Below, piece after piece: positions 254-2,014 of a DNA stretch of 46,659 nt. The stretch is from NCBI GenBank assembly GCA_028598975.1, contig JAQRMU010000063.1, positions 1 through 46,659 of the forward strand, in the 5' to 3' direction. Positions within the stretch are counted from its first letter, which is position 1. Every line of letters begins with the position of its first letter. A program made the position numbers and the translations under genes. The notes beneath the pieces were generated by a model. That model was not told the DNA's origin and made no database searches. It saw only the letters and a program-made list of their open reading frames with translations. This DNA comes from Gammaproteobacteria bacterium. Lineage in GTDB: Bacteria; Pseudomonadota; Gammaproteobacteria; Nitrosococcales; Methylophagaceae.

Positions 254-1048
254 ATGAAATTGATGAAAATATGGCTTTTTGCCCTTGTAACTCTTGTGAG
301 TCAGGCATCATTAGCAGATGTACTTGATGTTAAATTACATTATGTTGGTCCAAGCGATGGAAGTGTCTGGTTGGGAGTGCAACAAGGTTTATCAGAAGCA
401 AATTTACAAGGTCAGTTCTTAGGTCAGACATATAGTGTGCAAACTGTTACTGTCGATGAATTGGCTAAATTAGATTCTGTGACTGCGCTATTATTAGCAA
501 CGGATTCTGAGCAGATTTTATCTATTGCACAATCAGAGCAGTTTTCTGGTGTACCTGTATTTAATTTGAATTCAGGTGATGATGCATTGCGATCTGCATG
601 TGTGGCTAATTTATTGAGTATTACTGCCAGCAATAAAATGAAGCAAGATGCAGAGGCTCAAATGTTGAAGAAGAACCCTGAGTCAAACGCACATGCTCAA
701 GGCTGGCATGAGGACTTTAGAAAGTTCGCTGCAAGCCAACTGAATAGCCGCTTTACTAAGGCGCATGGTGTAATTATGGATGATGACTCATGGGCGGGAT
801 GGGCGGCGGTGAAATTGCTGTCAGATACAGTTGCTAGAACACAAAGTATGGATGCTGGTGTCATGTTGAACTATTTGAAAAATGATATTGCCTTTGATGG
901 TCAAAAAGGTGCCGGCTCTACATTTCGAGATACTGGTCAACTTCGTCAATTAGTATTGATGGTCGAAAATAAAAAAATTGTTGCCGAAGCGCCATTACGA
1001 GGTGTGAAAGGTGGTTTAGATAGTTTAGGTTTGAGAACGTGTAAATAA
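254..1048 (+). CDS. Periplasmic substrate-binding-like protein of a PQQ-dependent alcohol dehydrogenase system (short form)
   Basis: A secreted protein of 264 residues. I chose the ATG at 254 because GGAG lies 6 bases upstream and the product then begins with a type I signal peptide (about residues 1-21, cleavage after Ala-Leu-Ala); a GTG 30 bases upstream would only add a charged extension. The C-terminal third (GWHEDF at 150-155, MDDDSWAGW at 175-183, then FDGQKGAGSTFRDTGQLRQ) resembles what I recall of the TIGR03863 family, periplasmic binding proteins found beside PQQ-dependent alcohol dehydrogenases. Family members are usually about 350-400 residues. Here the segment after the NSGDDALR region passes almost directly to GWHEDF, so roughly 100 central residues seem absent while the frame stays open. 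The next gene, 12 bp downstream, belongs to the same genomic context. The ligand and role are unknown. Confidence 0.7.
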   Translation: MKLMKIWLFALVTLVSQASLADVLDVKLHYVGPSDGSVWLGVQQGLSEANLQGQFLGQTYSVQTVTVDELAKLDSVTALLLATDSEQILSIAQSEQFSGVPVFNLNSGDDALRSACVANLLSITASNKMKQDAEAQMLKKNPESNAHAQGWHEDFRKFAASQLNSRFTKAHGVIMDDDSWAGWAAVKLLSDTVARTQSMDAGVMLNYLKNDIAFDGQKGAGSTFRDTGQLRQLVLMVENKKIVAEAPLRGVKGGLDSLGLRTCK

Positions 1049-1060
1049 GGAATTATAAAA

Positions 1061-2014
1061 ATGAAATTAAAACAATTACTACTTTCATCATTGGTATTGA
1101 TGAGTACAACAGTATGGGCTGATCCAACGTATCGCTTATTTGTTACCAATGAAAAGAGCAATACAGTTAGCGTGATTGATTCACGTACAGGAAAATTAGA
1201 AACGACATTAGAGATTGGTGATCGTCCTCGTGGTATTGGCTTGTCGCCAGATCAAAAAACATTATATGTTGCAATTAGTGAAGAAAATGCGATTGCGATG
1301 GTTGATGTTGCTAGTTTAGAAATAATTGGTCGGTTGGAAGCTGGTGAAGATCCTGAAACATTTGATGTTCATCCTAACGGTAATTTGTATCTATCGAATG
1401 AAGATGATGCAAAGGCAACAGTTGTTAATCCTGCAACAGGTGAGATTCTTCATGAGATAAAAGTTGGCTTAGAACCTGAAGGTGTGGCTGTTTCTCCAAA
1501 TGGTGAGCTTGTACTAGTAACCAGTGAATCAATGAATATGGTACATATCATTGAGACGAAAGAGCATAAAATTGTGGCGAATATTTTAGTGGCTGCACGC
1601 CCGCGAGGTTTGGCGTTTAATAGTGATGGTAGCCTTGCCTATGTGAGCAGTGAGATTGGTAATGAAGTCGCTATTATTGATACTAAAACATATAAATTGG
1701 TTAAAAAAGTGAAAATTGATTTAGAAAAATCAAAGCCAATGGCACTGACATTAAGTCCTGATGACAAAGTGGTGTATATGACAACAGGTCGTGCTGGGAA
1801 AGTGGCTGTGTTAGATGCTCAAACACTAGAGATTATTTCAACGGCAGATGTGGGTAAACGTGTTTGGGGTGAAGTATTAAGCCGTGATGGTTCAACACTT
1901 TATACTGCAAATGGTGTGAGTCATACGGTATCTGTTGTTGATACGGCTACGAGCAAATCAACAATGGAAATTGAAGTCGGCAAATTCCCTTGGGGCTTAG
2001 CACTTGATGACTAA
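1061..2014 (+). CDS. Secreted YVTN-type beta-propeller protein associated with PQQ-dependent catabolism
   Basis: A protein of 317 residues with a signal peptide (about 1-20, cleavage after Val-Trp-Ala). The rest is about seven repeats of roughly 42 residues with the YVTN pattern: a V-x-V-I-D strand, T/G-turn and RPRGI or PxGVAVSPNG segments (for example residues 38-66 and 130-160). Length and repeats fit the PQQ-dependent catabolism-associated beta-propeller family (TIGR03866), which accompanies quinoprotein alcohol dehydrogenases and cytochrome c genes in the periplasm; its biochemical role is not established. It lies 12 bp after the binding-protein gene, so the two are probably co-transcribed, and a strong terminator follows. 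No dehydrogenase gene is visible; it could lie left of the window or elsewhere. Confidence 0.8.
   Translation: MKLKQLLLSSLVLMSTTVWADPTYRLFVTNEKSNTVSVIDSRTGKLETTLEIGDRPRGIGLSPDQKTLYVAISEENAIAMVDVASLEIIGRLEAGEDPETFDVHPNGNLYLSNEDDAKATVVNPATGEILHEIKVGLEPEGVAVSPNGELVLVTSESMNMVHIIETKEHKIVANILVAARPRGLAFNSDGSLAYVSSEIGNEVAIIDTKTYKLVKKVKIDLEKSKPMALTLSPDDKVVYMTTGRAGKVAVLDAQTLEIISTADVGKRVWGEVLSRDGSTLYTANGVSHTVSVVDTATSKSTMEIEVGKFPWGLALDD

Follow-up and report, generated by a model that had tools for sequence, protein, structure and literature searches.

The closest described counterparts of the locus reported here are the lanthanide importer PedA1A2BC of Pseudomonas putida and the Lut system of Methylorubrum extorquens. 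According to the relevant part of PMC6839425, loss of pedA1-pedA2-pedB-pedC raises the La3+ needed for PedH-dependent growth of P. putida about 100-fold, PedA1A2BC is required for growth at low La3+, and pedA1, pedB and pedC share more than 50% identity with Methylobacterium systems. In M. extorquens, LutA is described as the periplasmic binding component, with LutEF as its partners (PMC7391723, in part). The pedA2 gene carries the TIGR03866 family name (PMC12997753, in part) and its product was given in 2019 as 'of unknown function' (PMC6839425, in part), and xoxF3 clusters of Acidobacteria and Gemmatimonadetes are depicted with a propeller bearing that name (PMC10875860, in part). The periplasmic handling of lanthanides en route to the dehydrogenases is poorly known. 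Among the genomes compared here, full-length TIGR03863 genes are co-located with TIGR03866, ATPase and permease genes, as at locus L108, where the propeller scores 473.0 bits (TIGR03866), the permease 398.4 (TIGR03861) and the ATPase 293.0 (TIGR03864, just below the cut-off of 302.25). Since this operon order and these family names match pedA1-pedA2-pedB-pedC of P. putida, the full-length TIGR03863 proteins would correspond, by analogy, to PedA1 (PP_5538 in strain KT2440) and LutA.

The window, that is, the whole stretch of 46,659 nucleotides analysed here, is the entire contig C60. The genome to which it belongs comprises 1.88 Mb in 94 contigs, and its nearest named relatives are Methylophaga. 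It carries a much shorter relative of these binding proteins, with the following features:

254..1048, + strand: gene for a short, single-lobed TIGR03863-like (PedA1/LutA-type) binding protein of 264 amino acids (open reading frame, profile match, alignment)
254..316, + strand: signal-peptide-like start of about 21 residues (hydrophobic start in the translation, by eye)
317..688, + strand: pre-junction part, N-terminal portion of lobe 1 plus a putative remnant helix of lobe 2 at model residues 107-120 (model and alignment; lobes named after the anatomy of LivJ)
688..689, + strand: junction at residues 145/146, where about 90-95 lobe 2 residues of the full-length relatives are missing (profile match, alignment)
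689..1045, + strand: post-junction part, a short strand (model residues 127-129) plus the C-terminal portion of lobe 1 (alignment, model)
1061..2014, + strand: gene for a TIGR03866 (PedA2-type) beta-propeller, starting 12 bases past the short gene (323.9 bits against a cut-off of 287.3)

The short protein shares with PedA1/LutA homologous N- and C-terminal parts, a TIGR03866 propeller gene next to its own, and an occurrence together with PQQ alcohol dehydrogenases (PQQ-ADH). Unlike PedA1/LutA it lacks about 90-95 residues of lobe 2 and a loop of 18 alignment columns, the latter as a second gap following its first strand, and, unlike in PedA1A2BC/Lut, neither an ATPase nor a permease gene adjoins the main short form. 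The first-pass annotation had read both ends of the protein as TIGR03863-like, with roughly 100 central residues missing from an open frame with intact signal peptide and stop, and this observation was confirmed. TIGR03863 matches the protein in two stretches, profile columns 10-125 (41.5 bits) and 221-339 (74.4 bits) of 347, which together reach 115.7 bits and not the curated cut-off of 413.6; the central segment, columns 126-220 or thereabouts (some 95 columns), is absent, and the largest gap against the full-length protein of locus L104 measures 90 residues. The 264-residue frame (254-1048, + strand) is uninterrupted across the junction near bases 688/689 and ends in a stop, and the last conserved cysteine lies in the post-junction part. 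The boundary of the N-terminal resemblance did need to be moved, from NSGDDALR to about LKKNPESN, up to which the homology runs on. A Pfam search of the short protein at E values up to 1 returned no family, and a match to NF003984 (CDP-diacylglycerol diphosphatase; 12.5 bits, E 0.065) was taken as chance.

An isolated deletion in an otherwise full-length lineage, or an alignment without a gap, which the annotation had named as grounds for rejecting its reading, is not what we found. In a profile search of 63 genomes of the order, 39 matched and none rose above the TIGR03863 cut-off, nor did any of the 63 contain a match bridging the central gap; both pieces flank the same absent middle in 38 of the 39, the remaining one (G045) being a contig-end fragment only. 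A scan of GTDB for the short form yielded 37 loci, four of them from the named isolates Methylophaga thiooxydans DMS010, M. lonarensis MPL, M. sulfidovorans DSM 11578 and M. aminisulfidivorans MP. In a phylum-wide sample of 397 genomes, 65 exceeded the TIGR03863 cut-off and three (the window's genome, G442 and G458) showed the short pattern at E values up to 1e-15. We aligned 37 short sequences with two of a diverged type, here called short B, and 32 full-length sequences (24 of 30 phylum-sample loci kept by the filter plus eight more, three of which duplicate kept rows). The boundaries of the largest gap were identical in 38 of the 39 short sequences, the gap of L101 being one column shorter, so that the many short, conserved relatives proposed as a check do exist. 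In a tree built without the deleted columns all 39 short rows fall on one side of a branch with 100/100 support; the tree has no root, and the program issued a warning about long branches that meet.

Ka/Ks was 0.061-0.147 in nine of ten close pairs, the tenth being saturated, and 52 columns are invariant among 35 short sequences. Because the same junction recurs in 38 of 39 sequences and Ka/Ks is low, the short form is a real subfamily under selection, and not an assembly error or a chance product. Decay is visible in individual genomes (L113-L116 and L119, in G033, G038, G049, G043 and G008): the short gene is absent from G033, G043 and G049, where the propeller is kept in the same place, in pieces in G038 and split between frames in G008, the propeller again being kept in both. 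These cases would suit a decaying remnant or an assembly error, but the junction shared across the group, the low Ka/Ks, the presence in named isolates and the 52 invariant columns refute that explanation for the group as a whole and leave it a negligible probability. The short form is a conserved single-lobed PedA1/LutA-type protein that stays below the TIGR03863 cut-off. It is described in none of the titles and abstract openings listed by searches of the open-licence PMC literature, in which no paper with the word TIGR03863 was found either.

What has been lost becomes clearer from the predicted structure. An AlphaFold2 model of the mature window protein, made from an alignment of 35 sequences, was of high confidence with a pLDDT of 89.8 and a pTM of 0.89, and Foldseek and VIA-align group this model with type I binding proteins, the fold of lobe 1 being present. 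3n0w matched the model structurally (E 6.3e-8, Z 22.4, rmsd 2.8, 232 residues aligned within chain residues 26-399). When the PDB was searched by sequence, the short profile found a single, non-significant match, again 3n0w (E 0.39). The retained fold is comparable to two-lobed type I binding proteins (Z 22.4 for 3n0w, 19.8 for AmiC 1pea and 17.3 for LivJ 2liv), but unlike these the short protein consists of one lobe with a remnant helix and strand and has no two-lobed cleft. The full-length profile matches the two-lobed 3i09 at E 2.1e-4, and that alignment runs through the segment absent from the short form, which we take, from the anatomy of LivJ, to be the core of lobe 2. On this naming, the model suggests that of lobe 2 only the helix at model residues 107-120 and the strand at 127-129 are left, in agreement with the annotation's view that much of the second lobe is missing; with its core gone, the arrangement of two lobes with a ligand between them is not found in the short protein. 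The distant relatives have both lobes, which makes loss within the lineage of short proteins the more parsimonious interpretation. Judged by its title, a study by Bae et al. (2018), which is cited in PMC10601554, reportedly deals with a substrate-binding protein of Rhodothermus marinus made of a single alpha/beta domain, which would resemble the short form in that respect. A conserved, naturally single-lobed binding protein bears on the evolution of the two-lobed ones. Isolated halves of the ribose-binding protein are described as well folded and able to re-form a binding heterodimer (PMC10601554, in part), and therefore both docking of the single lobe on a partner and its dimerisation are physically possible.

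The propeller is one candidate partner. In 38 of 39 loci the short gene has a same-strand TIGR03866-type propeller gene directly downstream, and in the remaining one, L067, the contig ends; locus L065, whose gene is absent from the list of open reading frames, stands outside this count and inside the counts for 23 loci given below. The gene downstream resembles PedA2 in passing the TIGR03866 cut-off and differs from pedA2 in being paired with a short protein, with no pedBC behind. In Methylophagaceae the pair has secDF-like genes on one side and mpl-, ubiX- and FTHFS-like genes on the other (names read from translations), and no dehydrogenase gene lies beside the short gene of the window. The short form has dropped lobe 2 and kept its propeller, so that a possible role linked to the propeller can be viewed apart from transport, and the short gene with its propeller makes a two-gene system in which such a role can be tested directly.

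Outside Methylophagaceae, in other gammaproteobacteria, the surroundings are different. An AFOR-like gene lies upstream in 19 of 23 loci, and contigs of two of the other four (L057 and L066) start within about 0.5 kb of the short gene; an Fe-S gene and an FAD/NAD oxidoreductase gene are each found in 17 of 23. Families of these neighbours were scanned with profiles on L046, whose AFOR-like protein matches PF01314 and PF02730, and in L046 (1-5747) and similar loci a cluster of the AFOR-type aldehyde oxidoreductase with Fe-S, FAD/NAD and MoaD/ThiS-like genes adjoins the pair. The short protein could accordingly be an accessory of this oxidoreductase system, for example in metal supply. However, the Methylophagaceae loci have no AFOR gene beside the pair, and the L046 protein found nothing at 1e-20 in the 63 order genomes (a search run without positive control), which makes such a role very improbable. 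A kinase gene and a LuxR/NarL-type regulator gene, with families again scanned on L046, are likewise each near the pair in 17 of the 23 loci, homologues of these genes adjoin PQQ dehydrogenase genes in Methylophaga, and a gene table of P. putida places pedS2 and pedR2 after pedA1 (PMC12997753, in part). The short protein and the propeller might then be the periplasmic part of a sensor, presenting a lanthanide, PQQ or alcohol signal to a two-component system that controls PQQ dehydrogenases. We consider this quite improbable, given that the Methylophagaceae loci examined have no such genes beside the pair and that the sensory domain of PedS2 is described as cytoplasmic in the same partial source (PMC12997753). 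At L046:9985-12612 and in 11 other loci, an operon that includes a TolQ/ExbB-like protein lies close to the pair and possibly energises TonB-dependent uptake. A conserved open reading frame of about 85 amino acids without a Pfam match lies upstream of the pair on the opposite strand (L033:5390-5659, - strand, and 11 other loci).

A role in transport deserves more weight. Either singly or as two lobes facing each other in a dimer, the protein could feed Ln3+ or a lanthanide chelate to an ABC transporter encoded elsewhere, which in Methylophaga might be an ABC-2 type pair near the pqq genes. A PedC-like permease match was found in 46 of the 63 order genomes, and in all three Methylophagaceae loci that were read the permease and an ATPase adjoin pqqBCDE-like genes (read from translations), so that a link between the short protein and transport can be entertained; the ability of ribose-binding protein halves to fold alone and re-pair fits a dimer as well. 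None of the 46 matches rises above the cut-off, however, and such matches also occur in 8 of 14 control genomes; the permease of the window's genome scores 155.5 bits to TIGR03861 (cut-off 241.35) against 171.9 to drrB. Moreover, 18 of 23 bearers outside Methylophagaceae gave no match to TIGR03861 at 1e-10, and no pedBC-like or other transporter genes were found beside the main short form in the surrounding DNA examined. On balance we hold the transport subunit to be rather unlikely. The idea that Methylophaga is devoid of any such transporter was also rejected, being contradicted by the PedC-like permease matches and the pqq-linked ABC genes. The ABC-2 type permease and ATPase genes lie directly after the pqqBCDE-like genes in L135:7526-9234 (window genome, contig C53), L136:8472-10282 and L137:6228-7939, and their products could export PQQ or a PQQ precursor.

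Short B, the second, diverged short form, is found in a cluster with pedBC, which would favour a transport role for a single-lobed protein. At L140:10206-15153 and L138:3134-8127 its neighbours in a ped-like cluster are PedC, an importer-type permease, two ATPases and an NMT1-like binding protein. True PedC is present in G442 and G463. In both genomes, genes for a full-length relative, for short B and for a propeller share a ped-like cluster with ABC genes and with the gene of an NMT1-like binding protein, which was scanned in G442. The main short form is encoded at a separate locus, giving a full-length and two short forms per genome; the full-length TIGR03863 search covered genomes other than the 21 reached via named loci, and G463 was read directly. 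Because full-length and short forms coexist in G442 and G463, it is unlikely that the forms with and without lobe 2 are simple substitutes for each other.

Both forms go with PQQ enzymes. All 68 phylum-sample genomes with a full-length match (65 above the cut-off and three below) contain PQQ-ADH, as do all 23 short-form bearers examined outside Methylophagaceae (22 above the cut-off), against a base rate of 117 of 397; the window's genome has two TIGR03075 matches. We take the motif WDYD to be the mark of lanthanide-type dehydrogenases (DYD in XoxF, DYA in MxaF). Codons for WDYDG, counted as codon matches whose sites are not tied singly to dehydrogenase genes, occur in 21 of 23 bearers outside Methylophagaceae (reversed-pattern control 3/23) and in 41 of 63 order genomes (control 8/63). 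Among the 43 order genomes that are at least 90% complete (one with 6% contamination), the 25 bearers all hold PQQ-ADH, propeller and WDYDG codons, whereas the 18 non-bearers have PQQ-ADH in 8, propeller in 3 and WDYDG in 6; Fisher tests on such counts treat the genomes as independent of one another. In near-complete genomes the short form thus implies PQQ enzymes and lanthanide-type codons, and the reverse is not true. Over all 63 order genomes, four bearers are without PQQ-ADH and six without WDYDG, all at most 84% complete. Since propeller and PQQ enzymes persist in genomes without it, the short gene is dispensable for the retention of either.

Given the adjoining propeller gene and the co-occurring PQQ dehydrogenases, the annotation's suggestion that a binding protein with little of its second lobe may bind a partner protein or a cofactor is plausible; the connection to the PedA1A2BC/Lut importer goes beyond what the annotation proposed. 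Our preferred, if tentative, reading is that a single-lobed PedA1/LutA-type paralogue works with the propeller for lanthanide-type PQQ alcohol dehydrogenases; its periplasmic location, the single loss, the docking, the ligand and the hand-over are what we infer. The protein would be exported and consist of lobe 1 alone, as a paralogue of PedA1/LutA, a type I binding protein (TIGR03863). Nearly the entire core of lobe 2 would have been lost, in the simplest case by one event in an ancestor, and what is left would be an alpha/beta domain that folds by itself with the former cleft face open. With a single lobe, it would not be expected to capture a solute by closure. Instead, it may act jointly with the PedA2-type propeller in the periplasm, the exposed face docking on the propeller (or on the dehydrogenase) and holding or handing over Ln3+ or a lanthanide chelate. 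Against this reading, PQQ-ADH and WDYDG also occur without the short form in the near-complete non-bearers, the propeller persists in G033, G043 and G049 and, beside mere pieces of the short gene, in G038, Methylophagaceae have a PedC-like permease, the short B cluster contains pedBC, and the window gene has no dehydrogenase gene next to it. In a stronger version, the single-lobed protein and the propeller would form a transporter-independent periplasmic lanthanide chaperone, in which a former importer lobe docks and passes Ln3+ to XoxF/PedH-type dehydrogenases, with importer and chaperone forms side by side in some bacteria. This we find distinctly unlikely.

A second, diverged TIGR03866-like propeller of the lipoprotein type is encoded in a PQQ dehydrogenase cluster at L121:10846-11814 (window genome, contig C92) and at L117:9398-10366; the one in L121 scores 175.3 bits to TIGR03866, under the cut-off.
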